Of a stretch of 64,000 bases of DNA, positions 1 to 64,000 are shown in pieces. The stretch spans positions 9,447,501 to 9,511,500 of the forward strand of contig NC_084669.1 in the NCBI RefSeq assembly GCF_028389875.1, written 5' to 3'. The translations under genes were made by a program, and so were the position numbers. Origin of the DNA: Rhea pennata. Lineage: Eukaryota; Chordata; Aves; Rheiformes; Rheidae. Each line of letters starts with the position of its first letter. Position 1 is the stretch's first letter. The notes under the pieces are model-generated. The model was given only the letters and a program-made list of their open reading frames with translations, was not told the DNA's origin and made no database searches.

Positions 1-1621
1 CCCTATACAGTCCGCCTGTGTCTGATGTTAAAGGGGCCTTTCTGAAGCAGCAGTCTGGCCAAGGCTAGTCTCCGGGGAAAGCAGGTCCTGCACCCATCTG
101 AGACTGACTGGAGAGTTTTCCCTGCCACATCTCCAGCTGAGCCATAGGCAGCATTGGTGCTGTGGTAATGCTGGTTCAGCAGCAGTTGTGATGAAGTGCT
201 GCAGAGGGGTGACGCTTCTATCCAAATTATTAAAAGAAAATATAGCCCTTGAGCCCAACACTGTAGCCTGCAAAGCTCAGGCCTCTGCTCCCTGGTCAAG
301 CTTTCTAATGATGGATATGGGACATCTCATCCTCCTAAACTTAGAGACCATGAAATAGAAAAAAAAAGAGCGGGTCAGAAATCCATGCACCCACTTCCCT
401 CTCCTCCCTGGGACTTGCTGCCACACCTAATGGCCTCTGATACTCCTTCACACCTTGAGTCCAAGCTTAGTAACTGAATTGATCATTGGGTGGAGGGGGA
501 GCTGCAGCTGGTTTCTGGCCCTGCAGAGGCTAAAGCAACAAAGATGATTGATAACCTGATTAGGATACATGAATTGTTCTGAGGGCCCTGTGGATACATC
601 GATGAGCAGTACCTGAAGCCAGGATAAGAACAGACAGGGGAAACGCTACAGCTTCCTAACCCAAATTGCTCCTCCTATGGCATTTCCCCACTTGTAAACA
701 CACAACAGTCAGTTCTGTAGTGCTCTGTGCAGCAAAGGGAAAGGCCCTGCTAGACCCATTGATCTGGATATTTTTTTAAGTGCTAGAAAACCTTTGAAAG
801 GCCTGAGGCACAAACCATCTCCAAGGGATGGTCCTTCTCCTAGAGGACAGGAGTACAGGTACAAAAGCCTGATTCCTGGGGCAGCCTGTGCCTCCAGGAA
901 TCACTGCACAGGTGGCTCATGGGTGAGTGAGGATGTTCTGTGGAGAGGCTCTAGGCTCACATGACACTGCCATAGAGCTTGCGTGCAGCCAAGCACTTGG
1001 TCAGAGTATCTTGGCAGTGAAAAAGGTGACATTCCTCCCATTTTGAAAGTCTCTGCTGAAGCACGGACTAAGTAACCTGCTAATCCCAAGTATTAGAAGG
1101 AGTTCATAGGCCCCCAGCCTGTCCCTATGTAAGGTCTGCAAAAGGGAAAAAAGTCTTGCACAAAATTACTGAAACATCTGGCTCAAGACCCAGGTAACTT
1201 TACTCTCTGAACGACAGAGAAGCCATGTACACCATGAAACTTTTGTTTTGACACGTGAGCTGGCAGAAGAGCCTCTCTCTACCCTAAATATATCCTTAGT
1301 ACCATACCATCACCATACAACCCCTGGCAGCTGTCCTCTGGCAGTGGTTGTCCAGGCATTTCACAGTAGTATCTAGACAGTGATGGTGGAGAGCTGCTCT
1401 GCTTTCCACTCCACAGCCTGCTCAACATCAGTAGTGCTGCTGGGATATCACTAGCAGGGAATAGTGAACAAACAAACACAGACAAGTCCTGAGCAATACA
1501 CTTACTTACTCCAAGACACGAAACATCATTAAACAACGTCTCTATGTCCCCATTGTTTTTCTAACTCAAGGCATTCTTTTGTTGTAACTGTGACCTATAA
1601 AGTGGCTTTTTAGAGGGTTTT

Positions 1622-1640
1622 ATAATAAAATGTCAAGTGT
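1622..1640 (+). terminator. Candidate polyadenylation signal (AATAAA)
   Basis: An AATAAA hexamer on the plus strand is followed within 30 bases by a T/GT-rich stretch, the usual layout of a vertebrate poly(A) site. Two more AATAAA copies lie at 2342-2360. This would suit the 3' end of a plus-strand gene entering from the left. It is a motif only. Confidence 0.2.
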
Positions 1641-2125
1641 ATTATGTTACCAGTCTATTTTATTTGTAATGATGTGGCTTCCATGAATACATGTGTAACA
1701 TGCTCTTGCCTGCATTTTAGGAGCCAGCCCTCTTTCCTACACAAAACCAGCAGGCAAGGAAAATGCATCTACTACCTCAGTCTGTCCACTAGATAGCAAC
1801 TTTGTGCTGTGTTCAATGCTTGCTGGAATGGCTGAAACGAAAGTCAGGAAGAGGTTTAGCTGGAAAGGAAGCAAAAGTGTTAGTAAAGTTGCTAAGGCCA
1901 GTCATTACAGAACAGGCACCAAAACATATAGATACATGCATTTGTTAGATATCTTTTAGTGGCTATGGCACTACTAACTCCACTCCCTGGGAAAGCTCAG
2001 CAAAGTATAGCAGCAAAGACCTGGGGAGGGTTTGGCTCTCCATCCTTTCTTAACCAGTCCATTAAAACCAATTTGCCCTCTGAGCCCTGGAATCCCAAAA
2101 GGGTGCCTAGACTTGGGATTGAGCT

Positions 2126-2221
2126 GGGGGGGGAGGAGGTGGGGATGAGAGGGGAGAGATTTGGGGGAGGGAGAGAGAGAGGGGGAGAGGGAGAGAGTGA
2201 GGGGGAGAGAGTGTTGAAGGG
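2126..2221 (+). repeat. Purine-rich (GA/GGGA) tract
   Basis: About 96 bases with no C and only a few T, made of G runs and GA repeats such as GGGAGAGAGAGAGGGGGAG. Mirror-symmetric homopurine DNA of this kind can form triplex or G-quadruplex structures. Confidence 0.85.
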
Positions 2222-5200
2222 GCAGCAGCAGTTGCATTTGTCCTTCACAGTAATTCTTACCTCTGCCTATGCCTGTTTCCTCAGTGCCTCCGTAACTGCT
2301 CAAATTTCAATCTCAAATTGCTCATACTGCAATAACAAACCAATAAACAAAAAACAATAAACAAACTGGAAAGAGGGTCTTTCAATGGGAATCAAGAGTA
2401 AGACTAACCAGAAAACCCATTCCCAGCCCACCTTGCTCAGAGATAGGCACTCCCTGCATAGCTGCTGGGCAGGAGCCTTAGGAAAGCAGGGACTCGTAGA
2501 GGGCAGGGCCAACAGCCTTGCAAGCCTCAGGGCTTCTTTAATGCTTATAGGCACCTTCAGAAACTGATGCAGAGGGCTAGATGTAGCTCATCCAGCATGC
2601 AATTCTCATGCCCATCACCAGAGTTCACAATCATCTGTGGTTCTTGCTTCACACAGAGCAGTTTTTGTCCATCTGTGCTTAAAATGCAGAAAACGATTTT
2701 CCCTAGTTTACTGCCCAAACAAGCAATCTGTTCCAGTAAAGCCCATCCATACACTCTAAAAATGTTCTTACTAGCTATGCATTAAAATAAAAAAAACGTA
2801 CACGTGAAGGTTACAATTAAACTACGTTTGCCGTGTGCCCAAGTGCTCAGCAGCACTGTAAAATGTGCAGGCAACATATATAGAAAGGAAAAGGCTTTAC
2901 ACAGCTGTATGAGGCTAGGAAAGCATGTCCCAGCTTCAGAGCTGTGTGCTGAACAAGGTGAATGTGTTTAAGTAAGTTTGAGAGAAAAGACTGAATCTGC
3001 AGAGGACAAAATGCTGTGAAGAGTGAACTAATTTCTATTGCTATTCAAAATGTCAGCCCTTCAATTAAGCCTCTGTTTTGCTTTGCCTTACACACCTAAG
3101 GACATAGACAATCTACTGACAGTGAAAAGAAAGTGGAAATTCTCTTTCTTCCTGGATTGTTTTCTCCCACAAGGTATAAGATAGTGTTACCTTGTCTTGG
3201 TGCCAGCTTTCAGCCCTAACAGGGCTTTAGACCACTCTTCCTTTGACAATGAATCTGAAGAATAATTTGTGTCTCTCTTTGTACATCTAATGTTACCATT
3301 CAAACGTGGGGCCCGGACATCTGAGTGAAGGGATTTTTCTTTTCTTCTGGGAACAATAGATGCTATTTTCATTAGCACCGGCAATCACAGTTGTTAATGT
3401 CTCTGCCTTGGCTCTTTCCAGAGCTGCTTTGGTCTCTGAAGGTGAGGGATGCCATGGGAAAAGCAGCAGAAAAACCACACAACAGTGTGAACTAGGTGGC
3501 CCTGGGGGAGGAATTATTTAAGTTGAATAGTTTCATGGGCAAATTGATCTAGCAATCCAGTGAGGCTGATGCTCTGAAAGATGCAGGCATGAGGCCAAAC
3601 TGTGTCTTTGGGCTTGAAGCATCACAGCCCATGAGAGGCCCAGCTGGCACTGTGCAGACTGCTCCATGCTGGGGGTGAATCAGCTTTAAACAGTGAGAGG
3701 AGGCTGAAGTGCCATTTGACTACTCTGTTTGGGTTCAGGTCAGGTCAAGCACCCTATTCTGTACAGCCCACCTCTGAAAGGAAAGTAAGGTGATATGGTA
3801 AAGCTCAGAGCCACAGAAGAACCCTGAAAGAGAGTATGCTCAGAAAGATCATTAAGAATTATATCTTTCATTAAAAAAGACACCAGATCCAGTTCCCAAG
3901 CACCTGTGCCTCATGCAGCAGGATTGGGGGTACATAAGGAGCCAGGGGGACCAACTACCCTACTCCTCTTTATCTAGCAAGGATGTATTAAGCTATAGCA
4001 TTAAAAATATATAGACCAGACAATTTAATTCTCTAATTTTTCCATTAAAATTCCATCACTTCTGACTGAGCTCAATCAGTTAGATTTAGAAAGACAAATA
4101 TATCTTTTTGCTGGTCCAAAAATTAACATCAAGATTACAGCTGACTCAGAATCTGATTCAGCTTATGGTTTCATTTTTTTCAATACTCTCTTAAAAACAT
4201 CCGCCTTTGCAGCTCTGCTTGCCAGCATGTAATCTACATTAACCCCTTTCACCAGGAGCACCAGAATTACTCAGACTTTTACTGTATTTTTAGACTAACT
4301 TAAAGATCTGTCAAGAAGTCTGTTAAAAAAAAAATCCCACGGCACTAGAGTCTGGATGAGGAAACTCAAAATACCAATAATAAATACTTAAACACAAATA
4401 TCTACTTGATACAAAAAGAAAGAGAGCACTAAGAAGCTCAGCTTGTGTGATGGCAGGAACTGGGAACAGTATCAGCACAGTCTCTGGGCCAGAGTAAATT
4501 GGTCACTGCAGAGGACAGCAGTGGCTTGTCAGATCGTGTCTGCAAGTGGCCATAAGCAAGCATTCCCAGGAGGAGAACTGGAGCATTCAGTGCATCTCTC
4601 TCAGTGTTTCCAATCCACACACTTTTCGGTATGGCGGGGAGCTCTGGAGAAGTGCTGCAGCCTATGTGGACTCTGCTGCACGTGGGAGACCAGAGGAAGG
4701 ACTAGTGATCTTGGAGAATCACCCCTGACAATTCCTGTTGCAGAATAGAAATGGAGCAGCAGAATAAGGGCTATAGGATCAAGGAATTAACTCATGATCA
4801 CTTTCTTACAACTCAGCAAGCACACCTTTGCTTTTACCTGACAGATGTTACAGGCATTAGGGTGGAAGTCAGAGCTCCTTGGCTCAGATAAGTGCAAAAC
4901 TCAGCTGGGTGGGATGGGGAGTGGGAGGTTGGGAGGGAAACCTCTCACCTGAGAACTTCCTGCTGTGGGCACAGTGCCAGCTCCAGGGAGGCTGGAGGGT
5001 TGCTGCCTTCTGGCCATTGCTATATTGCTGAAGAGCTGGAAAACAATGGGAGGCTTTTGCACCATGAACTTGAAAGCCAAGAGCAATACAGGATCACAGT
5101 CCAAGACAGACAACTCTCTCCCATTAAAATTAGGCCAGACCCAGAGCAAGGCAAAGAGAGTGTCTACTAACAAGGTCTATGGAGAAGGGGTGCAGACCGG

Positions 5201-5546
5201 AGTGGAAGAAGAATAGCAAAATCATTAGGACTTTCTTGAGCTTCCTTCAGAGTCAGCTTGCTTTGTAAATGTGTAAGGATGCAACTTCTTGTGAGATGTC
5301 CTCATTTCCCCTAATGCAGCAGGGCCTGGGCAGGGCAAGCACTCACTTAGAAAAGATCACCAACCCAAACCTCTCTACTTCCCTTGAGATGGAGACCATG
5401 TCAGCACCAAGGCCCAGTCACAAAACAGCTATCAGGGACTTACTGCTTTGTCCTCATGCAAGAGAGGGGTGCAGATTTGCAAACAGTTGAGAGGAACTGG
5501 ACAGAACAGGTGATATGTGCTGCAGGTACCATCTGCCAAGCCTTAC

Positions 5547-5669
5547 TGCTTTCACAGTGGGATCCTTCCTGTCCATGACATTCGCACCAGTAGCTCCCAG
5601 GCCCAAGGATGCATATGCCCTGGTTCATACATTGGTTGGGTTTGTGCAGGTTCACAGGGCTTTTTGCTT
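5547..5669 (-). CDS. VWA2: VWA2 exon: EGF-like module 2
   Basis: 123 nt, phase 1 in, acceptor TTGCAG. It encodes EAKSPVNLHKPNQCMNQG, then CECHGQEGSHCES, recognisable as the C-terminal EGF of VWA2. The first EGF cysteine is His here (CAC at 5644-5646), and the last loop is one residue shorter than usual. A GTAAGG donor follows at 5546. If it is not used, the frame runs on to a stop before 5440. The final coding exon and 3'UTR were not identified. Confidence 0.75.
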
Positions 5670-8600
5670 CTGCAACAAACACAAGAACAAGAGCAGGCTC
5701 AGGCACATCTACAGAGCATTAATATCTAGGACCTGCATTCATCAAGAGTGCTGCAAAAAATGGCAGCAATTAAATACTCCAGGCCTAAGAAAATGCCATC
5801 TGAGGCTTCTGGGCTGGTAAAACCACATTAATATGGGAGGAGAAGGAAAGCCCACAGTCTCATCTTTGTAGGCAAAACTTGCCTATGTTTAACCTAGAGA
5901 AGAGGAAGAGAATAGCTTTGCTAGATGTTCTGATCTGGAGGCTAATATAAAGTTTGAAAGAGTAACATCCCATTAGGCTGAATGTCAAAGAAGAGTAGAA
6001 CACACCATCTTCAAAGCTGTGTATTGAACACACATTGATCTCTAAACCCCTCAGATCCAGGCATCACAAAAGCAGAGTAAGACACATCCCTTGCTCCAAC
6101 TAGTTTATAATCCCATACTCCAGCTCCAGCTGGAGCCCACTCTGTCTCTCCCCTGGAGAGAACTTTAGGTTGCATCAGTGAGAAGCAGACACAAGTCAGC
6201 TGGAGTAGGGATGGCATGAGTGGAAAACAATTTCTGGCAGGAAAAATTTCTGGCCAACTTTCTAGCAGTTTTGAGAGAAAAGCTTGCAACTACAACCCAC
6301 ATTGTTATTAGCTCTGTTCTTGTGAAATATATGACAGCTTTCCCTACCCTTTTAATGCACCAAACCTCAGCTGTTGGCAGGGCAGGGAGTGTTTCATGAT
6401 GCTTTGCTGTGAATATGTTAGATTAAGTAGCATCATCCCAATGGGATCTTCTTCCAAGTCTTTTGGCAATTCTGCCATAGCATTGCTAAGGATGCGAAAT
6501 TCCTTCACTGAACATCCAGATAGTATAGAGTTTGGACCTTCTAACCTAGCTCTTCGCTCTCCAGTAGCAAAAGGTAACAGAGAAATTCAGAAAGGAGGAA
6601 AAAACACAAGCTCAACCCCCTATCCATCAAAATGATTACTGTAGACGATAGCAGATTTTTCTTGCTCTCTGTAGAGATAATGTTGACATATGCACATCAA
6701 CTCTCAATCTACACCTAAATTAGGCAAAACTATCATCAAAACTCAGTTTCTCAGTAGCCAAATGCTAGGTCTGAGGGATCTCAATCTTCAATTATTGTTT
6801 ATTTTATATAGGCCCAAGTTGGCTTCAATAACTTTTTTTTGTCATCTTCAGATATGATCTCCAGAGGTCCCTTCCAACCTCAACTATTCTGTGATTCTGT
6901 GATATCCCAGACAAGGCCCTACCTGACAGTGGATCTCCAGGGAAGGAGGTCTTCACTTTCATCACAGGGTGATAGAGTCAGTGGTGATGAAAGTGGAAAG
7001 GATCTCATAGACCCAAAGCTTGGCTTCCAGGCCTTGGGCTTTTCCTGGTGCTCTGCCGGGACATTCTTTGCTCAACATCCCATACAACTACCACTTCCAT
7101 CCAAGATAGACCCACAGTGTAAGTGTTCTGTTTGGGGGAATCATGCTATTCAGACAAGACATCATTTTTATAAGCCTACTGATAATACAGTGTCATCTTA
7201 AATAAGCTTGTCTCACTTCAGGGATTTTACCCTTTGATGATTCCAGAGGCCTGTATTGCCATTAATCACATACCATATATATTTAATGCTTGGGATCTTT
7301 CCTTCTAGGTCCCTGGATAATTTTTTACTGGTCTCCTTAAAATTAGGTATCAAAATAAAATGCAATATTCCAGGTGTTCAGAGCCAGGGTCTGTTTTTCA
7401 TACACTTTTATGACAAGTCATAATTTTTAAAAGTCATGGATGATTCTGTTATTGAGTTTTGGACTCAGACTAGAAGACTGAATGAAAGGCTTATCTGTAC
7501 ATCAACCCTGGTCCCAGCCCATACAGTACAAATACTGATCACCTGCACAAGAAATAAAAGTAGTCATTCAGTCTCAGGAAATGATATGTTATTATCCTGA
7601 ATCACCGAACTTTGTCATCTCTTTCCCTTCATCCATGGCCTTGTGGTTAATTTCATGGTACAGTAGACTGTTTTTATAATAACACCACTGAAAATATTGC
7701 TGCAATACAAGCACACCGAAAAGCTCAAGGCAGACACTGTCTGCAAAGGTCTACCAGGAGACAAACTTCTCATTCAGAAGAGACAGTTCTCTAGTTCTTT
7801 CCAATCCTAAAAGGGCCAAGGGCATGCCAAAAGATAAGAGTGATCTTTGTGCTGCTACTAACAGTACAGCTCAACTTGCCTTTTCACTTGATCTTACAAA
7901 AGGCCAAATAGCAAGATGTTAAAGTTGGGCTATTCTGAATGAGAAATAAGGCATGGAACTTTTGAGTGGGGAGAGAGTAGCTGGTGTAATAAGCAACTAG
8001 AAGCACTTTCTCTACCACCAATATCTACAAAGTAGGGCTGTTTGCCTTTCCAAAAAGCCATTCCTCTTGAATGCTTTGGAGATAAAAATATGGTCCCGCA
8101 AACAAAACTAATCACAAGTTGTCTAAAGACCTCCATTTACTTAACAGTTAGCAGGCTTCAAGTTCAGGCAGATCCTCCTTTTGGGATTAAGTCCAAGGCC
8201 TACTTGAAAACTTCAGTAGTGGGACACTGGCTAGAAGCAGGAATGATGAGGTTGAAACAGAATTTTCAGATCTATTGCTTTGCAAATGCCCAAGCACAAA
8301 CCTGTTGAAGGAGGCATCAGAACCCTCACTCCAGGAACCAACATCATCAGCTGTGGAAATGTGTCCCCTTAAACCTCCTAACACACTGCATGGGATACAA
8401 TAATGCATGGCAAACTTTACAGGTTTAAAGCAACATCAAAAACAAACTTGTACTTGCAGTGAATGCAGAACCTAGATCTGACAGATCTGGAAAGAGCCAA
8501 TCACATGGAGCCTGGATTGTAAGAAAGCTGGTTCCTACTACTATAGGATTGCTTTGGGCAATCACCAGATATCGAGGTCATGGATTCCTCATCTATTAAA

Positions 8601-8746: not shown

Positions 8747-9298
8747 CTTCACAGATTCTTTCGATGATAAGGTCTTCATAATGCTGCAGGTCTTCATAGG
8801 AGGAGATGCGGACCAAGTAGTTGGGAGACGCAGCAACTCTCAGCAGCAAGTCGCTCTGTGCATCTCCAGCGACAACCACAAACATCAAGATGCCATTGTT
8901 CCTCAGCTGCCAAGCTGGGGAAGCTGCGTCCTCCATGCCACCTCCATTTGTGAGCATCACCACCACCTTGCTGACACCAGGCCTTGCTCCTTTCTGCACA
9001 GTCATCACGTCACCATAAATATGCAGCAAGGCACTGCCAGCAGAGGCTGAGCCTCCAAGGAAAGGCAGCTGGTCAATAGCTTGGAGAAGAGCTGAATTGT
9101 TAGTGTGAGTGTCCAAAACGAACATGGTGTGAGCTTTGCTGCCATAGACCATGAGGCCAATTTGGGTGATATCACAGTTGATGCTGAAGTGGAAAGACCC
9201 ACTTCTGACAAAGTCTCCCAGCTGTAGGAAATTCTCCAGGCCAACTACAGCCAAAGCATGAACTGCAAACATCAAATCGAGGGACTGAGCCTGGTAGC
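8747..9298 (-). CDS. VWA2: VWA2 exon: third VWA domain
   Basis: 552 nt, phase 1 to 1, open throughout, acceptor ATCCAG, donor GTAAGA. Good similarity to VWA2: FHFSINCDITQIGLMVYGS, then FLGG.ASAGSALLHIY, then VMTVQKGARPGVSKVVV, ending LIIERICE. The MIDAS D-x-S-x-S is replaced by H-A-L-A-V (9246-9260), and the Cys expected just after the exon start is Tyr. Metal binding by this domain is therefore unlikely. It could still fold. Confidence 0.85.
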
Positions 9299-9628: not shown

Positions 9629-10202
9629 CTTCAGGATTGTCTACACTGCAGATTCTTTTCTGCAGCTCTGGATCTTGTTAACAGATTCTGGGGGCTGGAA
9701 TAGATGATTGCCTGCTTTGGATTGCCAGTCACCTCAGCCAGCTCTGCTGTCAGAAAGCTGCCGCCTACGCCGATCAGGAAAATACCTGGATCCCTTGCAC
9801 ATTTAGCTGCTTCTGCCATTGGATCTTGAGAGTCAGTGGGCAAGACAACTACCCGTGGAAGATAATCCTGTACATCTGCGAAGACTGGGGTGCTCCTAAA
9901 GCCCTGCTGTGCAATGTACCACAGGGCTCTCCCTATCAAAGTTCTTCCTCCACTGAAATTCAAAGCCTCAATGCTCTTCATGAGACCAAACACATCCTTG
10001 TGCTGCCTCACTTCAATGGGTATCTTGACATGATTATTGTACCGGGCCACTCCCACATTCATTGGTGAGTCTGGACCCATCACAGCTTCAAGGAACCTCT
10101 TTAGGAATGCCTTGAAACATAGGAATCCCTCTAGCATGATCCCTGCTGAGCTGTCCATGAGGAAAAGAAGATCCACACTGCACTCAAGGGTCACCTTTGG
10201 TG
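9629..10202 (-). pseudogene. VWA2: VWA2 exon: second VWA domain, frameshifted
   Basis: 574 nt, acceptor TTTCAG, donor GTAAGG. It encodes a complete VWA fold: VDLLFLMDSSAG at the N-terminus (D-x-S-x-G, as in mammals), GGRTLIG in the middle, RVVVLPTDS near the fourth strand, and FLIGVGG plus ELAEVTGNPKQ late. The length is not compatible with phase 1 to 1, as 576 would be needed. Around 9674-9690 the conserved frame shifts, so the original frame hits TGA at 9631-9633. In the shifted frame the conserved ending reads QDPELQKRIC, then SVDNPE up to the donor. Confidence 0.85.
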
Positions 10203-11018: not shown

Positions 11019-11126
11019 TGCAGTGGATGTCTCCTCCATACCCCACCAGGCCCCGGCAGTGGTATTTGTCTAGCCCCTCTGGGACACAGCTACCTCCATT
11101 CTGGCATGGCTGGGAGTCACAAGGGT
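11019..11126 (-). CDS. VWA2: VWA2 exon: EGF-like module 1
   Basis: 108 nt, phase 1 to 1, between acceptor TTTCAG and donor GTAGGT. It encodes CDSQPCQNGGSC, then VPEGLDKYHC and ending GGDIHC, plainly EGF1 of VWA2. Five cysteines remain. The fifth in order, expected two residues after the fourth, is Gly (GGC at 11050-11052), one base from TGC. With the GTAGGT donor the frame joins the next exon as C-T-P-K-V-T-L-E-C, matching the family. Confidence 0.8.
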
Positions 11127-14100
11127 CTGAAAGGAAAGAGAGAGAGTCAGCAGAAAGTCTGCCCCTTCCCATCCTGTTCCAGTGTGAACATTGCCATAAA
11201 TTGAAAAGGGCTCAAACTTCAGCCCATCATGCTGTCGAGTCCAGCATATATGCCCTCAGTCAACTTAAAACAACTTCACTTAGAGACATTGGTATGTCTC
11301 TAAGCATTTCCCTATGCAAATAACAGATGGCAAAGCAAAATTGTGAAGTTTCTGTATATTTGCTAGAGTGTTATTAATCTGCAAAAGATAAACTGCATTA
11401 ACAACTTGTCAGATTTAGCTTGCTTGACCTGAACGAACCCATCCCCCATACAGGCAGATCCAGTCATTTAAAGAGTCTGCTTAGCAAGTGCTATTTGATA
11501 GCTCTGTTCCAGTTCACTATCTGTTCATCAACACTGTTCACTTCAGAGTGTGGGATGGCTCTCAAATAGGTAGCTGTGAAGAAAACAAGTCAGACTGTGA
11601 CCTTACTTCATTTGCTTTGGAATAATTTCAATGAAGTTACATTCATGCAAATATAGAATAATTACTAAGATTAGCACAGCCCTTCCAGATTTCAACTAGC
11701 AAAGAAGGAATCAAAACTGGTTTCTTGATTGCTCGTATTTTGTTTGGCAAGGTGTGTTTGCACCATTAAGATTTGATAGGTTCAGTATATCTTATTTTTC
11801 TTTAACCTTTGATTTCTCTAACACACTCCCTGAGAAACTGAACTGAATTTTGAACTCAAATGTCCAAATCTGAAGGGATATGGAGTTCCACTGTCTTGAA
11901 ATTTTTAAGTGTAAACCACAGAGTTTTTAAAACAAAACATACTCTACCTTGCAAACACTGAGATAAGGTGAAGTAGTTCTGGTCAGGTGTTTGGTACATG
12001 GGGAACAGCATCACTGAAATGTTCAGTTTCACTTAGAATAAAGAAAACTGTCTCCTTAAAGGCTAATGCTTAAATGTAACACCAACATCACCTGAGTTTG
12101 TCCAGTTAGACAAGCTGCTGCTAGTTAAAACTGGTGGCAGCAGTGTGATGAGAGACACACAGAAACCATCTCTCCTTTATCCTCATTTTACTCAAACTTT
12201 GGTTATTCCCTATTATTTTGAAGACTCTTTGACATTATCAGCTGTAATTCAAGATTTTGCGTGAACTGCTGCTTAAGAACACAACCCACCCAGGGCCTAT
12301 CTTGCTGCCTGCCCCAGCAGTAGGGGCCACTGCCCATCCCCACAGACCTGCCTGTTGCCTGCCAGGGGAAGCAGCCCAGGCAACTGGAAAGCCAGCAGTA
12401 GTGTGTATCACAGGATAACACTGCATAACAGTATATTAGGATGGCAGATGCTACCTGGCTGTTTTAGGGCTTCCCAGTGGAGTCTGAATCCTGGCTCAAG
12501 TCCAGGTTCCCAGGAGAAGGAAACTGGGGTCCTGAGAGCACAAATTTGACACCGAGGTGCCCTGATGCTCAGGCACGGTGCTGCTGGCTGCAGTGTTTGG
12601 GAAGACTGCCTGCCCAGGCTGGCAGAGCATCTGCAGGGCCAAGTACCCAAATCATCAGTCAGGGAGCACAACAGTTCCCCAAAAGTCCTGCTTGCACTAG
12701 ATTGAATTTAACAGGATATTTGGTTTCAAGTAATCAGCACTTCCTGACCAAAGCCCTCCTTCTGATCATCTCTTGCACTATCATTGAACATCTTCCCTCC
12801 TACCCTATTCTGATCATACCCTAACACCCACCTCTAAAGCTATATGTTAACAGCATAAGTAGAGTAATTCTGAAGTGATCCATTTCATTCTCAATAACTA
12901 ATCTTTAACTCATACATTATATTCATGGCAGCAGAATTCTGCAAGAGAAAGGAAACTGCATATACTCTCCAAAGCAGAGAATTAAACATGCAGCCTTGGC
13001 ACCAATGTATTGTCAAAGAAAAAGCCATTTGAAAAAGCACTGAGAAGGAGTTAAGTGCAAAACTCAAACTGCACTCAAAGTGTAACTATTTCCACGGTCA
13101 GAAAAAAACATTGACAATTACCAAGTGTCAGGTTCCCTGCTAAACTGGTGATGCCCACAGTACCAAGTGTACGGATGGAGGCATCTCATCCCACACTCCC
13201 TTAGCTGAAGAACATTAACTCCCAGCAGACATCAGTGAGCTGTGAGAGCCTCAGTCACCAGGAATATGAGCTAGTCACAAGTGAACAGCTCCTCAAGTGA
13301 AAGGATAAATGATGGGGAGATATTTTAATCCAGAAGAATTCTGGTCATAAGTAACAGTGAGGCAACAAACTATGATGTAATGTCAATTTATTGCTATGGA
13401 TCACAATCCCTCACTTAGGAGCAACACTTTTAGAAGTGAGAGTAGAACCTCATATTTTTATTCATTATTTATTATTTATCCTGTGCTGTAAATAGAATTT
13501 CAAAAAAGGTAAGTCCTACCTGGACATACTGTTTGGAAACACCTGGATGAGTGTTTTTATCAAGACTCTTTTCCATCTGAAATAGGAAGATTAATAATAA
13601 ACTGAAGAATAAAACCTATAATGAATTAAAAGATTAACAAGTTATTTTCAAGGTTGACCTCACTGTGTTTTCAATAGAAAAAGATTTCTCTGGAAAAGGT
13701 AATTTTTCAGAACAAATATTTCATAACAAAAATGTCTATTCTGAGTGGGAAACAAAAGAAAAAAAATAATTTCATCAAATTTATTCTTTTACTTTTGAAT
13801 TTTACTTTAGCATTTTACATCCAATTATTACAGATGTGTTTCAATGGCTCCAAATGATTTTTTTATTTGCTATAGAGATTTTAAACTTTTTCCTCTAATT
13901 TGGAATGAAAAGAAAATTGTATTTAAATGTTAATTCTGGCTTCCAACTGATATAACTGTAATGGCTAGTGGACAGGCAAGGTTTAGACTGGGAAGAAATT
14001 CTCAGATCTAGAAAACCCATGGCACAGAACAGGTAACAAACATGTGCAAAAGCGTTTGCCTCAAAGCACCCTGGTTGCACAGGGCAAATGCAAATGTTGA

Positions 14101-17100
14101 GAGCTTCTTAGCATACCCCTGGGAACTCAGGAGGACCAAATACAAGGCAGGCTTTCTTCAGGGCTTTTCCAGTACCTTTTATGCTACCAAAGCAAACATT
14201 AAGAAAAGCTGCCTGATGTTCCAGTTCTTTAAATCCACACTAAATTCAATCAAAAACAATACTCTCATCTGCCAGCTTGCTCACCAGCAGTGTTGGTATG
14301 ATAGGGAAGGTATACCAGCTGCTGGTGTATGCACCAGTATACCCAATACCCTGTGGCCAGCCATCTAGTTCTCTGACTACTGCCACCTGCATTTTGGAGA
14401 TGGGATCACCCAAAATAAGAGTAAGGCCATTAAATACATAGCATAAATTATCCACTTCAGTTCATTTCTATCTCAGACACCAAAGTTGCCTTACTCCCTG
14501 CACTGTAATGTGTCCTGAAGTCTTGGAAGTGACTGGGAGCCCTCTAGGCTGGGGTCTGGGCTATCATGGAGTGTGTGGGGAGGAACTCTGCTCTGGAAAA
14601 TTTATTTCCATCTATTCCTATTCTCTGATGCAAGTCAGAAAGTAGGATGAAGATAATCCAGTCATCCTTTGTTTACAAATAAATGGGATAACAAGAAATG
14701 AAAGGCCAGACTTCTTTTAAAAGCTGCAGACAAGGTCTTCTGAAAAATCTGCACATACCCACTTGCCCTGAAGGGCTCATTGACGGGCTTTGTTCTGAGG
14801 AGTAGGTGTAGGAGTAGGCCAGACCTGCCAGAAGGGGCTTGAAAAACTCTTCCCTATGCTGTCATTAATCACATTATAGCAGGACACTGGAAACTTTCTT
14901 CCCACAGCATATCATCCTTCACTAACAAAAACAGACCAGGATGTATTTTTTTTAGCACACTGTGAATTTAAGACCTCACTGACATGCACTGTTCATTCAG
15001 CTCGCTTCCTGGGGATATCACGCTGCTGGAAATGTTCAGACCTCAAAATGCTAGAGATCATTCACAACACAAAAAAAGGAGAAGAGCTGTAAAATAAGCT
15101 GACCTAAACACAGTCTTCTTAATTCTCTCTTTCACTCCTTGTTTAGTTAGATACAAATCCAGCGGGAATTCAAGGTGAGGAGTTGAGCTAAGCTGTATCA
15201 TTCCCACATGGACCTAAAAGAAGAGGTTAAAGAGTATGAAAGAGAGGTATATGGGAGAGTTTTTTGCTCCTTTGATCAGTTTACAGATTTGGGAACACTC
15301 AATTGTTTTGAGACAAACACTGTTCTGCACATTAAGTTACTGGCATTTTAAATGGACTTTGAAGAGAACATACACCACAGACTTGCCTATATAGACTACA
15401 TGTTTGACAAAAAAGTCCATCTACAAACATCATGGGAGCCTCTGTTGCAGTTACAGGCCAGTTCAAGATCTATATTTATCCATTTAAAGGATCTAGTAGC
15501 CTCAAGGACAGTAATATGTTTGTAAATAACACTTTTTATATCAAACCATTTAGGCACTATGCATGCAATCTTTCCATTACGAAAAGCAGCCCCCTCTGGC
15601 ACTGAGCACAGTAGGCAACACAAGGCAATTATTTTTCCATTGCTTTCCCTAAGAACATTTTCTATACTTAAAAATGCCTGAAAAAATGTAAATAAACAGA
15701 GTAAATGACCTGTACTAAGTAGGACATCCAGAATATTTCACTCAAGCCTTACAAGAAGTTTTATGGAATGTGACATGATCAGAGATGAAAAAGGTACTGA
15801 GTTTAGGTCCTAGATACATAAGAATTTACAAAAAGAGAAGGGAAAGGGGAAACAGAGGATGGTATTTAAAAATAATAAATTCAAAAACTTGCAAATATCA
15901 AATGTCCAAATTCTACATTTGCCTAAGTCTGCACTGCAGTTGTTTCCTGGTTGCAAGTCTCTACTTCCAATCAATTTACTGTGTGCCAGAAAAGGGAATA
16001 CCTATCTAATCTGAGTCACCTAGCATCTGCCAAAGCCTCATACACACACTTTGACTTATTACCATCATCACCCAGTCTGTAGAGAGTCTCATACATTATG
16101 TAGCTGTTACCTGAGAGACGAAAGCTGAAAGATTTCTTTGAAGAGAAAGTGATGGGTGGAATGGTGATTTCAACTTCCAAAAGAAACTGAACTCTGTAAT
16201 AACAGGCAAAGCAGCAGCTTTTGGTTTTAGGGCTTGGAATAGTGACAGTAGTTGGTATGGAGGAGATTATATTTTGGGTGCAAGTCTAAGCATCCCTTAA
16301 GAGGGAACCAGAAGCAAAGGCAAGGCTTGGCTCTTCCTCCTTTACTCCCAGACCTCTCTGAAGAATCAGACACGGACTAGAGGATCCTCAAAACTCCAGC
16401 ATGCCCTGCCATTCCTGACCCCATCTCAGCTTCCTCATCCTGCTGCACAGAGACCTGACATCTCTGCCATGTCCTTCCCTAACGACCTGACATTTATTCA
16501 GAGGCTCCAAGAGGGAACGACGTTCAGCAATCATCACAACCTACTGCAAGCCCCCTGGCTAGGGATGGCAGAGGGCTGTGAAACCTTGCCCCATCATGTG
16601 CTCCAAATCTGTGTAATGAGGAACTGAATGTGCAGCTGGAACTACAGCCAGGTCTGGCCTGAAATCCTCAGAGACATATCCCAAGACCTGTTGATTCAGA
16701 CACATAGAAACTACAGGTTGGCTCCAGGGAGCGGGTAAGACCTGAGAGTGCCCAGACCATGCATGTGAGGATGCTTACAACAAGCAGTGCAGCTCCTATC
16801 AATCCTTTCAGTTGCTCAATGCCCAAAATCAGACTTTGATTTGAGGCACGGTCTAAAACAGGAATGGACAAGAACTTGACCTAGCCACACTTGCCCATTT
16901 ATTTTAGTTTATTTTATATTGAGTACATGTAAATAACACCTACTTAGACTCTAACTTAAAGTCCCAGCTAGTCAGTCCCCACTGTGTCTGTGGACCACCA
17001 ATATTTAAAAACACTGTGCTGCAGCCCTTACATTCAGTGGTAGGAGCCCTGGTGTGAGGAGATGGTGCTCATAGACTTGCTGAGAGAAAGCATCCAAATT

Positions 17101-17768
17101 TTTATTGAAGAAAGAATTGCAACTGCACTGAGGAGGGAAGTGATGCAGACACAAAGGAACAGGGCACCCAACTGTGACCTGCTGTGTTGTACAACTGTGT
17201 GGTAGTGGAAGATCTAACAGGAATAAAAATATCCCCTCCAAGTCACTCATGGCAGCCATGTAAACTGTAGCCCCACTGCCTTGCAATGAAATCCTTCCCT
17301 TCTACCCTTCTGGGCTTATTTTGGAATAGAGATCTTCTAGGAGAACCAGGACAAACAGACTGTATCACTAACATCTGTACAGAGAGGTGATTAACTTTCC
17401 AGAGATAAATTCTGCTACTCCCCTGGGGGGAAAAAAAAATCAACAAAAGGATCCAACTTTTTTCTATATTTGCCTCTGAGCATCCAAAATCAAATAAAAA
17501 TTACTTAAAAACTCCAAATCATATTCTTCAGCCTGAAAGATTACATCCTTTCAAGACCAAACGGAACTGTTTAAATCAGTGAAGAGCTCAGAAGTGCTAT
17601 TGAGCCCCACTAAATCATACACCTTCACTGTTTCTTTCTGAATAAATATTCTGACCCCACAGTAGCTGCTGGGTTGAATTTTGGGCTTTCACTCAATGTG
17701 TTATCATTGGCTTTTACAAAGGCTGCCAAGCTGCTTTGAACTAAAATGAGACATTTCTGACACTCTCC
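11127..17768 (-). other. Region where the rest of VWA1 should lie; none found
   Basis: In VWA2 the interval between the first VWA1 exon and EGF1 normally encodes the remaining VWA1 strands, with a GGRTETE-like and a VTDG-like motif, plus a cysteine-rich linker. Reading the minus strand in three frames gave no match. The interval seems to have lost these exons or let them decay past recognition. Confidence 0.5.
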
Positions 17769-17901
17769 CTGTCTGGACTGATGTCCAAAGCATCACAGAG
17801 TTTGCCTGCAAAGTGCTTTGACCTTTCAAAGCTTTCTTTGCCAATGCTGTAGGAGCCATCCACGAGGAAAAGGATATCTACTGAACCTAAGCACTGCATC
17901 A
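17769..17901 (-). pseudogene. VWA2: VWA2 exon: first part of VWA1 domain
   Basis: The exon follows acceptor TCCTAG and encodes MQC, then SVDILFLVDGSYSIGKESF and on to LDISPDR, the beta-1 strand and helix 1 of a VWA domain. The MIDAS motif DGSYS is intact. Where the donor is expected after the CCAGACAG codons the genome reads GGAGAG, not GTGAG, as if one T were lost. The nearest GT is 7 bases on and a poor match. The rest of the domain was not found downstream. Confidence 0.75.
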
Positions 17902-20900: not shown

Positions 20901-21764
20901 ATTAAAATTGCATGGCCCAGGAAAGCCAGGAGGCACTGCTGGAGTAAGCATTACAAGTTATGGCCTTAGAAGCAGAGATTTCATAGAATCACAAGCAGAA
21001 GAACAAGCGAAGAAGGAATTTAGAAAGTATAAGCCTTGCTTTATAAAAACAAACTAACACTGGCCAGCAGTTGAGATCTTGACAATCACCTCCTGGGCCG
21101 CATGAATTTCTTGTATACCCAACACCAGCAAAACTGTGGGATCAAACAGACAAATCACTCATGAAGCTGAAGAACTGCCTTTAAAGCAAAACAGACATAC
21201 ACGCTTTAATCTAAAGTAGCAAACATGCTGTTTTGCTGGCATTTTTACACTCACCAAGAATCATTTAGTGATACAGCACAGCAGTGTATCTAAGGGAAAA
21301 AAAGCACTTCTGGCAGGGACACAGAGAACATGAGGCCCTGAAAACAGTCAAGGACCTCATTCTAGGGCAAAGAAAGGACAGTCCCTCTGCTCACTACATG
21401 CAGGGACATAGCGCTAGAACAAGAGTTAGGCCAGACTTGGATTCTAGAAATTATACTCGTAAGTATAGGACACACAAAATAACTGCACTGGAGGAAACAT
21501 ACTGCACAAATTATCATGTTTTTTCCCATATAAAATACTCTTTTCACATACAAATCAGTCACATGTGTTCGAATTCTCAGAAAAGCTGTTTCTTCAGATA
21601 TTATTTTCTCCCTTCCTGTGTGAAACTATGTTTCAGAGATTTATATGTAAACCTCCTGGAAAAATACTCAGCTCTTCTACCATGGAGCAAAGAACTCCAG
21701 CTGGAGAGAGAGAAAGTGTCTGTGACAGAGCCACCCTGATGCAAAAAGGCAGTGTTAAACGTAC
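17902..21764 (-). other. VWA2 intron region; small second exon not found
   Basis: A short exon (about 50 nt) should link the signal peptide to VWA1. It was not recognised. One sequence with good splice sites (19452-19525) has the right entry phase but the wrong exit phase and no similarity. The rest looks non-coding. Confidence 0.4.
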
Positions 21765-28100: not shown

Positions 28101-28739
28101 AAGCTATTTTTGCAATTTTCAGCTCACGTTTTTAATGTCTGTTCCCATTTTCCCCACTGACTTAGAAGCAGGGTTCTGCTAACTCCCTCTCCCCTTTCCA
28201 CTTCAGATCACAGTAATGTTTGCATCTCATGGTTTCCCAAATAGCAGCTCCAAGGCAGGCATCTTTATCTCTATTTAACCTATATGGAAAGCAAGATATA
28301 AAGAAACGAAGTGACTTGCTTATAGATGCATGAGTTTGTAGCACAACTAGGAACTTGACACTCTATCCTGCTCCAGCTATTAGACTACATCAAGCAGAAT
28401 TGCTATTGTGCATATTGTGCAGGGGCAAATCTTGTGCTCTTAGTGGCACTGTGCAACTAGGCAATGGGCACAACCTGTCCAAGCTGGGGCAGAATCTGGT
28501 TTGTTGCTGGGTCTTTTCCTGACCTAGGAAGGGAGCTCAGTAGAGTTTGAAGGCTTCCCCCCCCCCTTTTTCTATCCATTTGTAAAACAGGTCTCAAGAT
28601 CTCTAGTGTAAAAGCAAAGCCCTGTCTCCTCCTGTTTCACCAGCAGTAGCTGTGGGATCCCAACTCTGCCAGTATCTCCAAGCCAAAGAGATTGTGCCCA
28701 AAGGTACCTGAGCTGGAAATCAGAGTTTGTGTTTCCGAG

Positions 28740-29450
28740 CAGAAAAGCAAAGCACGTTTTGCCTTCCAACCCCGCCCTGCGGACAGTGATTCACACCCGG
28801 CCTGCTGCAGAGGGCCCCCCCCAGCCCCAGCCCCGCACCGCATGCAGCACCTGCTTTCTCCCTCTTCACAGCACCCTGCACAGCTCCTGCGGCCACAGCT
28901 TTGCGGAGATCTCCGCGGGGGGCTTTTGGGAAAAGCTCTGCCGCCCGACCTCAAGCACCGCTGGAGAAGGTAACGCGGCTGCGGCAGACGGCAGCCGCAG
29001 CGCACAGGGGTCCCTCGCCTCCCCGGACGGGGGAGGCCCTTCCCCGGCTGGCGCCGCGCCGTGCCGGTCCGGCGCCGCGGAGCGCCCCGCCGCTGCGCCC
29101 ACGCCCGGCCGAGGGGCCCAGCGCCGCGCTCCTTACCGGCCGCGGCGGGACCCTCCGAGCGCGGCCCGGAGCACCCACCTCCGGCCCCGGCGCCCCCGCC
29201 GCGCTCCAAGCGCTCTGCGAGCAGCGGCAGGAGGAGCCGAGGAGGCGCCGCGCCTCGGAGCGGCCCCGCGGCAACGCCCTGCTCCCGCGGGGGAAACGCG
29301 GGGGCGCGCAGGGACCCGCGCAAGCGCCGCGCTACCTCCCCCGAGCTGCGTCCTCTCGGCGGCCGCGCCGCGATGCGCCGCAAACGGCTCCGCAGACATC
29401 ACGCCCTGGCAAGCGACTCCACCGCTCCCCAGGAGGAAGTAGGAAGGTGC
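28740..29450 (-). promoter_or_regulatory. CpG island, probable VWA2 promoter
   Basis: A sharply bounded region of very high G+C with dense CpG dinucleotides, about 7 kb upstream of the VWA2 start exon and 4 kb past the TDRD1 stop codon. Long open frames on both strands are low-complexity Ala/Arg/Pro/Gly reading and not genes. Placement suggests the first non-coding exon of VWA2. Direction is inferred from context only. Confidence 0.55.
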
Positions 29451-32400
29451 GGAGCGCACAGCACCACGCAGCAGCATCTCTGCCGGGAGAGGCAGACGAA
29501 AGGGACCATGAGCCTCTTGAAGTTATTATTTTCTATGCATTAAAACAAACAAAGGCAGAGTTTTTGTCAACAGCAGGTCTGATTTGCTAAAAGCAAATTC
29601 GCTTAACTTAATGTAAACCTACTCTCAGCTTTCCCACCTTGGGCTGAGGGTAAGCACAGCAACAGTCACGTGCAAAAGAAGGCACAGAATCAAACTGCAG
29701 CTTTACTTTGGTTACGGTTTCTTGCATCTCATTCCGTGCACATCCTATGCCCCGATTTACCATTTTGCTCACAGCTGTCTCTTAAAGCAGAGAGGAAGAA
29801 GTCACAAATGACAAGAGGCAAAGTGACAAGAAACCGGTCACACTTCTGTGTCTACTCATCAGACTAATTTCAGCACACCCAGAACACCATTCTGGTGCAC
29901 AGCTCACAGGCGTGCCTGCAACACTGGACATAAGCATAAGCACAAGACTGCAGCTAACTTTGCACTGCCAGAAGTTATAATGCAATTTATTTTATTTAGG
30001 AGTTAATTTTTCTTTAATGTTTGTTCTTGGTAAAGAACTACTATCCACATGTGAGTGAAAGCACCACATTCATACCCATTACAACTAGAGGAATAATTTA
30101 GAGTTAGTTTTAAAACTTCTGTATTTCTCACAACTAAGATGTGCAAACATATGAGCAGAAAAAGAACTCCTTCTAGTTTACATTCTTTGAAAAATGTTAA
30201 TCCCATATATTTCAGATTGGAGTTATAAATAGCCACATTCAGAATAAATTGGCGTTTAAGAAAGATTATCTTAATAGTAATCTATTTTAAGATTATTCCA
30301 CTAACAGAAGCTATACTTGAACAGGCAGATTCCATTTCTAGATCAGCTTTTCCTACTGCTTTTCACTTACTCTTTCAGTTCTCCAGCAGTCACATGCAAC
30401 ACCCTATTAAACAAATCTTCACACTTAAAAGATGAACAGAACAGAAACTTGCCATAGGAACATTCATAGAGTAAGAACAGGGATACAAGATGAGCTGTGC
30501 TGTGGGCACGCACTTGAACCTTGCTTCGTGTTTGGCTGTTCTGTATTCTGTAAAGGTCTAAGTAGAATGAAAAGATATATAATCAGGTATAATTTTTTCC
30601 CAATCAAGAAGTAGCTCCAACAGCCAAAGAAAAAAAGTAGAGCAAAACAATTAATTTTAAATGCACTAGCACTGTAGAATGGTCCAGATTTGGAGCAAAC
30701 ATCTCAGTCTTACATGATAGGATTGCTACTGCACAGCTGCTACAAACCTGCAATTAAAAAACAAAAACAACATTAAGAGGATCACTGTTACTCTCCTGTA
30801 TTTTCATCCCTTCCCTACCAGGTAAATTTAACAGATTAGAGCATTAATTAATCTAAACAAGTTTATAACTACTGTCTTGAGTTTCTTTCTATAGGGGAAT
30901 GCAATTCTCAAAAGGTTACAGCAACCTGGTCCAGCATAGCCTGTCAGGTGCAGAATCCCTCTACAAAGTTCTGCTTTACTTGTCTCAAGAGCCTGCTGCA
31001 CTGCAGTCAGAAGTGAACAGTTAACCACTGTGATGCATATGCTGTGACCGAGCAACACTCTTGTACATGAACCATATTGTCAAACACAGTAAAGATAAAC
31101 TTAGGAGGGAAGGAAGTGTGAGACTCCTTTACATTAAGTTTTAAAGTAGAAAGCAAGCAAGACTTTGAAAGTCCAAGACTCGAGACTCTAAAAGATTTTC
31201 AAAAGCATTCTATTGCCATAAACCGAAAGGCTTACAGAGCATCTCCAAAATGCACAAGTAGTGGTAACTGCCCAAGATTAAACCCTTTTGGCTAAATTAA
31301 GTTGCTTATTTCTTTCATATACAAAACTACATACACAGATAAATAATTCTGTTACCTGCAAAGAGGTAACACTATCTGGTAACATCATGGTATTTAAGTT
31401 AGAAAAAGAGTGCAGTATCAAACACTCAAAAAAACCCATTAAAAATTCTAGTTCCTACAACAGTGATCCATAAACGAGAAACAAAAGACTGAAATGAATC
31501 CCTATTGTTTTTCAGTGCTGTATCATTTTTAAACTTACACTATTTTACTTCAAAAAGTACTGTTATTACAGAATCCCAGTCCATACCTCTTTTTACAAAG
31601 AGGACAGGATTACGGTATTTTATTTACAAAGAGACTGGATGTTGCAGTTTTGAAGATGTCTTATTTCATCCCTTGCTCAGACATGATCTTCCAAATTACA
31701 TCCTATCATAACATTTAGGTTCCAGTTAGATAAATTCTATCAGTCTTGGATTATGCTCACAAGAACAGGCTTCAATTTCATAATTTAAAAAAGCAAAGCA
31801 AAGCAAGTGGCCCTATCAAAAGTCTAAGAGGTTTCCACATTTCTTTCTAGATTTGACGCTACACCATTCTTCCAGAAATTTTTGTCAAAATTAAGCAGTG
31901 AATTAACTCTGAACCATGCCAGGTCTTTTAATTCTCCCTTCCTCCTGCGATCTAGAAAAATATTGCCAAATTCCTTGGTACCACACACTCCTCACTACGT
32001 GAAATATCAATCACTGCTTTCCAGGGTTTTTGATGGCTGCATAGGACAAATGAGCGTTTCCTCCTTCAGAATTTTCTTTTTCCTGCTTTTCAAACATAGA
32101 TGAGGTGACTACTTCTGACTATTGCCATAAAGTCATCTTATGAAAGAGAACAAATGCTTGCTGTATATTAGTTGCTAAGCTAGGAAATACATGGAAAATT
32201 GAACAAAAGCTGTAGGAGGACTAAAGAAGCAGTGAATTTTGTTTTGCATATGGGCAAATGCTTTTTAAGGTCATAGTTGTCCCAGGAAGATAAAGGACAC
32301 TAAAGACAGCCATAATCTTCGCTCAGAATAAGGGGGCAAAAGAACTCTAGAGAACTAAGTACAAGATTTAGTCTAATTATTAGACACTGAAGTGTTAGAA

Positions 32401-57735: not shown

Positions 57736-58739
57736 CTGCTTAAACCTTCATCTGAAACTTTATTACCTTTGTTCTTCACACGAAGTGGTTGGGCCATCAT
57801 AAAAATGTTCACATCCAAGTAAGACAAAAGGTGTGAATACAGTCATATGCCAGGTAACTACAAAATCACATATATAAGAATTAGTTCATGCACATACACA
57901 TACTAATTACGTATTTTAATGTCTTTGAGTAAAGTTTTGAAGTTATACTTCAACATCAATTTTGGAAGGATAATTCTCCACTATTTCTGTAATTTGCACA
58001 GTAAACAGTAAAATATTGTGTGTGTTAAAGCTATCAACAATAGACCCTCCAAATTAGAAATAAATAAATAAATAAAGGTTATGTCCTACAGGAATTCACT
58101 GACAAGCAAGAATGGTTGTCATGAACACACTGTTGAGTCTACTGAACTCAAGAGAGATCTTGTTTAATTATTTTAAAGTCATCCTACATTAAAGTATAAG
58201 CTATACTCATTTGTTCTTTGGGACTGGGAGTAAACCACAAGTAAAGGCTCTGAAGTATTGTATACTGAAGCCTTAAAAGGGCAACCAACTTCTGATTTGA
58301 CAAAGGCATGATTTGAGGGAAAATACTACACTAGACTTTGCCAAAGTTAATTTCTAGCACCTGCTTTCCAAAAGTTAATATACAATGTTAACTATCTTAA
58401 TTATGAAAACTGTCTTGCTATATTATGTTAAAGAAATGAAAGTGAACTTGAAAGAAAGCTGAACAGTCTTTGAACATATTATACTGTAACCAGCTATCCC
58501 AACTGCAACTGAGTAATACCAATAGCACTATTTCAAATAGCGTTGTTTTAAATAATTAATTTGGGATGAAATTAAATATATCGCAAACCACAGCCAGCAA
58601 CCTGAACTCATTGGTAAGCTAATGCTTTCACACATTTGTCTCTTTCAAAAGGTAAGAGACCGCCAAAGGCCTTGCCAGACTTCTGGCTGAGCCTGCAGGC
58701 CTGTTTTCCCTCCTCCCCCTCCTCTTCCAGCAAAGGCCT
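57736..58739 (-). other. TDRD1 5' region, start exon not resolved
   Basis: AT-rich sequence between the first recognised TDRD1 exon and the CpG island. The initiator ATG of TDRD1 must lie here or in the island, but no candidate with a fitting donor and similarity was found. Confidence 0.5.
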
Positions 58740-59300
58740 GGCAGCTCAGTGCCCGGTGGGGAGGGGGGGGTGCAAGCAAGGAGTCAGCCCCAAGATCGAG
58801 CAGCACCCCAGGGCACCGTGCCCCCCCCGCCTTCCCCCACGGCGCGGCGCTGGCCCCCCGCACCGCCACCAGAGCTCCGCTCCTCGCCTCGCCTCGCCTC
58901 GCCTCGCCTCGCCGCCTGAGGGGTGCCGCCCACCCGGGCTCCCGCAGGCTGCAGGGCGAGAGGCTGGGCTGCCGCCGACAGACGACGCCCGAGCAGGATG
59001 CCGCGGCCCACCGAGCTGAGACGGAGCCTTCCCCTCGCCAGGCCGCCCCCCAGAACTGACCGCACCTTCCCGCCGCGCCGCCACACGACACCGCTGCGCG
59101 CGCACCCGGCCGCCAGCGCCCGCCAACGGCCGCTGCGCGCGGCGGGGCGGGGCGGAGCCGTCGGATGCGGGCCGGGCCGGTTTGGGCCGGTCGGGGCCGC
59201 TCTGGCGGCGGTGGTGGGAGCTGCGCCGCTGCCGCGGCGCGGGCGGCGTGGTGCTGCGGGGCGCTGCGGCGGCGGGAGCGCCGCGCTCTCCGTGAGGAGG
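58740..59300 (-). promoter_or_regulatory. TDRD1: CpG island, probable TDRD1 promoter
   Basis: Dense CpG, no TATA box, 1 kb upstream of the first recognised TDRD1 exon. It holds six CCTCG units (58882-58911) and a CAACGG MYB-type site (59124-59129). In mammals TDRD1 has a CpG-rich promoter active in the germline. Long open frames on both strands are low-complexity reading. Confidence 0.65.
58882..58911 (+). repeat. (CCTCG)6 tandem repeat in CpG island
   Basis: Six exact pentamers. Read on the minus strand it gives regularly spaced GG pairs with a CpG in each unit. Confidence 0.95.
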
Positions 59301-62214: not shown

Positions 62215-63010
62215 GGGGCCCCTCTGCACGCGGGACCTGCTCACGGGGTGCCTGCGCGTGGTCTCTGTCTGTGGGGGGCTGCCTGCACGGGGCGATCTAC
62301 CCGCGGCGCCCGCCCGCCCCACGAGTGGTCACAGCCTCTGCGGATGAAGCCCCGCCCACAGCGGCCCGCGCGCGGGGCTGGCCCCGCGGCCCCGCCCCCG
62401 AGGCCCCGCCCCCGCGGCCGCCGGAGCGCCGCCCGCCGCCGCCATCTTTGTTGATGTGTCAGCTCACCGGGGCTGCCGCAGCTGGCGGCGCGCGCCGCCG
62501 CCATGGGGGAGCTGCCGCCTTCCTAGCGAGCGGGTGAGGCGGCCGGGACGAGCGCCGGGCGGGCGGCCGGCGCCGCTCAGCCCTGCGCGCCGCCCGGAGG
62601 CGCCGCGGCCCCCTCGGGGGGTGGTCGCGCGGATTTGCGGGCCTGGAGCGAGGGCGGTGGGGGCGGGCAGCGGCTCCGGCTCCGTGCTGCGCCGGCGGGG
62701 AAGGGGGGCGGCGGGGCCCCGAGCCGCCTCGGCCGCCTGGCGCGGCGGGGCGGCGGCGGTGAGCGCCGAGGGGGCCCGGCCGCGAAGGGACGGGCGCGGG
62801 GCCTCTCGCGCAGCGCCCGGGGCGCGGGCGGCGCGGGCGGCGCGGCGAAGGGACGCGCGGTTGGAGGGGGGGCAGCCCCGCCGCGGCCGGGCGCCGGGTA
62901 AGGCTCCGGCGGCGCCCGGAGCAGCGAGGCGAACTGCGGGGGTAGCGTCTTGCCCCGGCGGCGCCCGGCGGGTCGGGAGCTCCCCTGCGCCCGGCTCGAG
63001 CTCTCTGCTG
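62215..63010 (+). promoter_or_regulatory. CpG island, probable CCDC186 promoter
   Basis: The strongest CpG island of the window, TATA-less, with several CCCCGCCC GC boxes (about 62385-62412) and a YY1-type element GCCGCCATCTT at 62438-62448. Synteny (VWA2 - TDRD1 - CCDC186, the last divergent from TDRD1) points to CCDC186. No CCDC186 coding exon is inside the window, so the identity is inference. Confidence 0.6.
62450..62533 (+). other. Putative non-coding first exon (CCDC186?)
   Basis: Begins near the YY1-type site, which often sits at transcription starts of TATA-less genes, and ends at donor GCGG|GTGAGG (GT at 62534). It carries an ATG in a strong Kozak context (GCCGCCATGG, ATG at 62503) opening a frame of only seven residues, MGELPPS, with a stop at 62524-62526. 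It therefore looks like 5'UTR with an upstream ORF. Confidence 0.45.
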
Positions 63011-64000
63011 GCTGCTGCTGCTCTTTCTGTTTCCTGGCAGCGTTGTTCTCCGCCGAGTTACTGCCCGGGTTGTTCTGTGTGTTTCGTTGTGTGGCTTTCA
63101 CCGTGTGGTTAAATAATTAAACGACAAAAATCAGCAGCTGATACAGCGTACTCAGTGTGAAAGCTGATTTTTAAAGCCTGCAGCGGGGTTGCGGTGGAAT
63201 AGGTATCCTTGTTTTTGCACGCTCAGTTTTAAAAGCACCTTGCCCTTACAGGTTTGAAAGCAGGTGGCTTTATTTTGCAGCTTTAGTGAGTTGGTTATGA
63301 CATAGGTATTCAGATTTTCGCTCCTGTCCTGGAAAATATTCTGCACAGGTGGATCTGATCTTGTGCATTCTTCCAGTGAGACATTTGTGTAGAGACCCTC
63401 TCCGCATCTTGGTGGTCTGAGAGCTGTACACAAGATCAAGAATATTATAGTCTTAGTTTTCTGTTACTTGACTTGCTTTATCTTGTAAAATTGCCTGTCA
63501 GAAATCAAAATATGATGAATACATGTTTTCTTCTGAATAAAGAAGATTTTGAAACAGCATGAAAAACAACTACATTTTTATATCAAAAAGGAAATGTAGT
63601 CACACTGATTCCTGGTTGCTATGAATGCTTATATTACTGTTCCCTTTAGAAGAAGAGGGTTAAGCTCTAAAAGTTTGAGAGAAGTTCTAAAGCTGTTTCA
63701 AGAGACACTGCATTTGAAATGTCATCCTTTTTATAAAAATAAAGCAGATTAGTTCTGTATTACCTTTTGAGGACTCTTCTTTTTCTGGAATTCTCTAATT
63801 ATCCTTATTTAGCTTGGCCCTGAAGCCTTGGCTTTAAAACAATATTTTCTTTTATAGTGATGTTTTAAAAGGCTTGATTAGAGGTTGTTGACAGATGTTT
63901 ATTAGTGTATCGCAAGGTTCACTATTTCAAAGTGTTGAGAAAGGAACTGAAAAATCAAATACAGATAATGATTCTTGGTTCTAACTAACGAGTATGTTGT
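62534..64000 (+). other. Probable first intron of the right-hand gene
   Basis: GC-rich to about 63010, then AT-rich sequence with no recognised coding exon up to the window edge. Confidence 0.4.

Follow-up and report, generated by a model that had tools for sequence, protein, structure and literature searches.

Can the VWA2 gene of Rhea pennata still produce AMACO, an anchoring protein of skin and organs? The question arises from a stretch of 64,000 nucleotides on contig NC_084669.1 (the window), in which the exon for the second VWA domain of this gene (VWA2-domain exon; positions 9629..10202, minus strand) runs into a frame change and a stop. We examined this exon, the rest of the gene, and the remainder of the genome assembly. 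We conclude that the VWA2 (AMACO) locus is very probably a unitary pseudogene, i.e., the sole copy found in the genome, whose function was lost by decay in place.

Frame change and stop in the VWA2-domain exon

For comparison, we used human VWA2/AMACO, which we take to be Q5GFL6; this is a single, unverified sequence, and all residue numbers below follow it. The family check of the VWA2-domain exon also drew on relatives in PDB. On the minus strand, the exon starts at 10202 after an AG acceptor (...cccttttcag followed by CACCAAAG) and ends at 9629 before a GT donor (CCTGAAG followed by gtaagg). Its main frame translates into 189 residues, with a Pfam VWA domain (PF00092) covering residues 10-168 at 58.4 bits, and is 45% identical to this human protein over 191 aligned positions. 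These matches agree with the original prediction, in which the exon was open and conserved for about 170 codons. That prediction also held that the family-type ending then moves to another frame, and we located this ending, PELQKRIC, at 9671-9648 in a frame other than the main one. Aligned without gaps to the tail of the human protein, it scored 32, a value reached by none of 200 shuffled exons (maximum 24), and the window's minus strand holds no better-scoring site.

The main-frame translation confirmed that the original frame terminates at a TGA (9631-9633). In addition, the exon is 574 nucleotides long (574 mod 3 = 1), and this length misfits the phase 1 that the flanking exons imply at both ends, as had been noted. 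The change of frame, the TGA, and the mismatch between length and phase are all present in the sequence. A net loss of two nucleotides near 9674-9690 is the simplest account of them, and the deletion claimed earlier is supported. Translation of this exon would change frame after about 170 codons, lose the cysteine at the C-terminal end of this VWA domain, and stop two bases before the donor, so that the third VWA domain (VWA3) and second EGF domain (EGF2) could not be produced.

Two other features of this exon were not counted as lesions. We rejected a two-residue gap in the main frame (LPT--DSQD, relative to human VWA2 and COL6A3), since within this exon the human alignment also contains a gap of two residues the other way; as the two gaps balance, the argument from frame and length is untouched. 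A Leu-to-Pro change beside the gap was left uncounted because it may be avian.

Lesions of other kinds along the gene

Eight pieces of VWA2 were placed in the expected order on the minus strand, from 21133 down to 5547, a span of 15.6 kb. Their boundaries were set by hand using similarity and phase. The domain order of AMACO (VWA1, linker, EGF1, VWA2, VWA3, and EGF2) is present, but most of the linker and the latter half of VWA1 went undetected. All eight pieces have an AG acceptor and seven of them have a GT donor, the remaining one having GA. Only across the two frameshifted exons do the phases of adjacent pieces disagree.

The N-terminal exon (21059..21133), which encodes the end of the signal peptide and the start of the mature protein (LLVLGIQEIHAAQEVIVKISTAGQ), is flanked by an AG acceptor and a GT donor and is in phase 1. 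The first exon of the VWA1 domain (17768..17901) is open, and its splice donor is changed to GA at 17767-17766 (AGG followed by gagagt). A TAG in a protein-match row at C7:9465235 was not counted as a lesion since it precedes the exon start. The second exon of the VWA1 domain (15104..15213) is open and has AG and GT ends.

For the latter half of VWA1 and the greater part of the Cys-rich linker, exons are expected at 13580..15102, where nothing was detected, although neither this interval nor any other part of the window contains N bases. The part in question comprises residues 125-278 of the human protein (~154 residues), and neither frameshift-tolerant alignment of the interval nor a tblastn search of the window recovered it. 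In the frameshift-tolerant alignment, the two test pieces from residues 125-278 scored 29 and 27, against means of 32 and 28 in 12 shuffles each. The remaining four of the six test pieces scored 51 to 159, while their shuffles peaked at 27 to 32. The last linker exon (WKRV...RCFQTVCPG; 13520..13576) was recovered with a score of 64, where the best of 12 shuffles reached 29, and carries a +1 frameshift within a run of A. Its 57 nucleotides are incompatible with an entry in phase 2 and an exit in phase 1.

Downstream of the linker, the EGF1 exon (11019..11126) is open, with the fifth conserved cysteine replaced (QCLC in human, HCRG here). The VWA3 exon (8747..9298; 552 nucleotides) is also open, and in it the human metal ion-dependent adhesion site (MIDAS) motif DTSAS aligns to HALAV and the N-terminal cysteine is changed to tyrosine. 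That this exon is still open across its whole length despite the altered MIDAS indicates that change there has so far been by substitution only. The EGF2 exon (5547..5669) is open too, with its first cysteine aligned to histidine and one codon fewer between Cys5 and Cys6. For the two ends of the human protein (residues 1-21 and 750-755), tblastn of the window gave no convincing match.

Taken alongside the frame and splice lesions, the changes at cysteines and at the MIDAS fit a loss of constraint, and any single one of them could be an avian feature. The lesion that drew attention to this locus is one among several. Upstream of it, the changed donor, the undetected exons, and the second frameshift would by themselves block a normal product. 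Since these further lesions are of other kinds and lie elsewhere in the gene, decay of the gene is likelier than a read error, and we rejected a single base-calling error.

The only copy found in the genome

We searched the whole assembly (1.27 Gb in 180 contigs) for further copies. At the DNA level, the VWA2-domain exon has a single match. A protein search with VWA2, in which 59 of 196 candidates were scored and which is thus not exhaustive, returned 55 matches, six in this locus and 49 elsewhere. Long VWA-domain matches outside the locus are at most 41% identical to the query, whereas the two long exons of the locus itself reach 45 and 50%. Four short matches outside the locus reach 46-56% identity at 28-32 bits and resemble other VWA or EGF genes. 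Among the candidates scored, we saw no second VWA2-like gene and no VWA2-like match for residues 125-278, which the whole-protein query contained.

Hence, three properties of the locus argue for a unitary pseudogene. First, it carries disabling lesions, namely the frameshift and stop in the VWA2-domain exon, a second frameshift, a changed donor, and undetected exons. Second, it has kept its introns, its eight pieces being dispersed across 15.6 kb, and so is no retrocopy. Third, no working copy was found elsewhere in the searches above. We rejected a duplicated or retroposed copy because the introns are kept and the exon has one match in the genome.

Could the gene be intact in the animal, with the indels and undetected exons being faults of base calling or assembly? 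The shift in the last linker exon does lie within a run of A, and the shift in the VWA2-domain exon requires two bases only. Against such errors, lesions of differing kinds coincide in one gene (indels, a donor substitution, cysteine and MIDAS changes, and undetected exons), and the same assembly of few contigs holds a FREM2-like exon that is open over 1,928 codons. Internal stops occur in only four of the 49 VWA/EGF matches outside the locus, from which we take frames to be usually intact in this assembly. We therefore judge an origin in sequencing or assembly error to be very unlikely, and the lesions are probably real in the animal and fixed.

A second alternative is that the gene was reshaped in this lineage and still yields a shortened, secreted protein, for example by exon skipping or the use of other splice sites. 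The EGF1, VWA3, and EGF2 exons are open and have AG and GT ends. Moreover, EGF1 exits and VWA3 enters in phase 1, so that skipping the 574-nucleotide exon would preserve the frame there. Skipping would leave the product broken upstream, however, by the donor at 17767, the undetected half of VWA1, and the shifted linker exon, and it does not explain why the open downstream domains are altered at disulphide cysteines and at the metal site. We consider a functional short form less likely still. Least likely of all is a null allele segregating in the species, with a broken haplotype in this individual and a working gene in others, for although the data are one assembly with one match to the exon, several lesions have accumulated across the gene, as expected after fixation rather than in a young allele.

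Several points weigh against a unitary pseudogene. The evidence comes from one assembly, and the comparison protein is unverified and human only, so that residue differences could be avian features. The +1 shift sits in a run of A, a common site of sequencing errors. All placed exons other than the two frameshifted ones are open, including VWA3 over its 552 nucleotides. Since the placed exons are mostly open and seven of the eight have AG and GT ends, decay has been modest or recent; loss of VWA2 would then be recent enough that most placed exons remain open. In addition, the dispensability of AMACO is not clear-cut, as in one patient with vesicoureteral reflux a homozygous VWA2 missense variant has been proposed as causal (PMC5774751). 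Nor need every frameshift in VWA2 amount to loss, since human VWA2 is described as tolerating one, after a 5-bp deletion, in which truncation is confined to its unique C-terminal region (PMC10095167).

Comparison with known VWA2 genes and known losses

The pieces found here follow the order of human VWA2/AMACO (N-terminus, VWA1, linker, EGF1, VWA2, VWA3, and EGF2), each with 45-65% identity by tblastn or genome search. This locus differs from the human gene in that most of the Cys-rich linker and the latter half of VWA1 are undetected, and in having two frameshifts, one changed donor, and changed cysteines and MIDAS. A report on AMACO gives 13 coding exons for human VWA2 (PMC10095167). It also describes the protein as having no paralogue in human and mouse (PMC10095167), and likewise none was seen among the candidates scored in this genome.

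AMACO-deficient mice are described as viable and fertile, without an overt phenotype (PMC10095167). This makes loss of VWA2 plausible, and by analogy with these knockout mice, the loss may have been tolerated because AMACO is largely dispensable. According to the same report, the domain structure of AMACO is conserved across mammals, birds, amphibians, and zebrafish (PMC10095167), and VWA2 is among the genes tabulated in an RNA-seq study of chicken follicles (PMC10815237). Given this conservation in birds and the entry in the chicken table, the loss is probably lineage-specific rather than bird-wide. Other genes with a described lineage-specific loss in birds include CNR2 (parrots), WDR93, CFAP46, and MDA5; VWA2 occurs in none of the 15 papers listed, out of 2,887 that matched a loose query, among which these losses appear. 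Among the papers listed, judged on titles and abstract openings, we found no account of VWA2 loss in birds.

The frameshift, present in the assembly, most likely belongs to a unitary pseudogene, which would be ordinary in kind and moderately interesting as a natural loss of AMACO. If true, a bird without VWA2 would show in nature that AMACO is dispensable, and comparison with sister species could then give a date for the loss and a link to traits of skin, feather, or kidney. Automated annotation may bridge the frameshift in VWA2, with the result that the gene is reported as intact.

A broken FREM3-like exon elsewhere in the genome

Searching the genome for CSPG repeats (PF16184) yielded 67 matches, two of which hold a stop. 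One of the two lies in a large CSPG-repeat exon (C4:50554001-50562000, 413-5814) that is broken into shorter frames. We call it FREM3-like, a name that presumably applies given its contig and its kinship, the chromosome assignment being tentative. In contrast, a FREM2-like exon (C1:188840501-188848500, 2065-7848, minus strand) is intact, this being the exon open over 1,928 codons. By tblastn, the FREM3-like exon is collinear with the FREM2-like open reading frame and shows three frame switches and one in-frame TGA. Frameshift-tolerant alignment of four junctions gave five frame changes and one stop, with three of the changes in one poorly conserved junction. Like VWA2, then, an exon resembling Frem3 of the FRAS/FREM family is broken in this genome; it belongs to a separate gene on another contig.

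VWA2 (AMACO) and the FREM3-like gene could represent a double natural loss of basement-membrane genes that are dispensable in mice, with the FREM2-like exon remaining open. We consider this reading, in which the epidermal anchoring system would have been slimmed in this lineage of birds, as likely as not. Two such losses in one genome are suggestive, but a trend cannot be claimed from so few genes. The other match with a stop is weak (C4:71289721-71289891; 30.4 bits) and has one TAG inside; it belongs to another multi-exon gene of the family and may be an intron edge.

Neighbourhood of the locus

Tudor and MYND exons lie at 35054-55641 of the window on the minus strand, the same strand as VWA2. 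Six of nine TDRD1 pieces matched there and three did not. Judged on these domains, the neighbouring gene fits a TDRD1-like gene, and the listed neighbours of human AFAP1L2 include both TDRD1 and VWA2 (PMC4068053). We selected 17 TDRD1 core pieces from open frames, so their uninterrupted state is no independent control; in several of these pieces, simple splice patterns failed to identify a consensus donor or acceptor. Long, overlapping, GC-rich frames occur on both strands at 28612-29590, 58618-59475, and 62121-63116, and by their appearance they are candidate promoter CpG islands. The first of these stretches, 28612-29590, lies upstream of the VWA2 exons.
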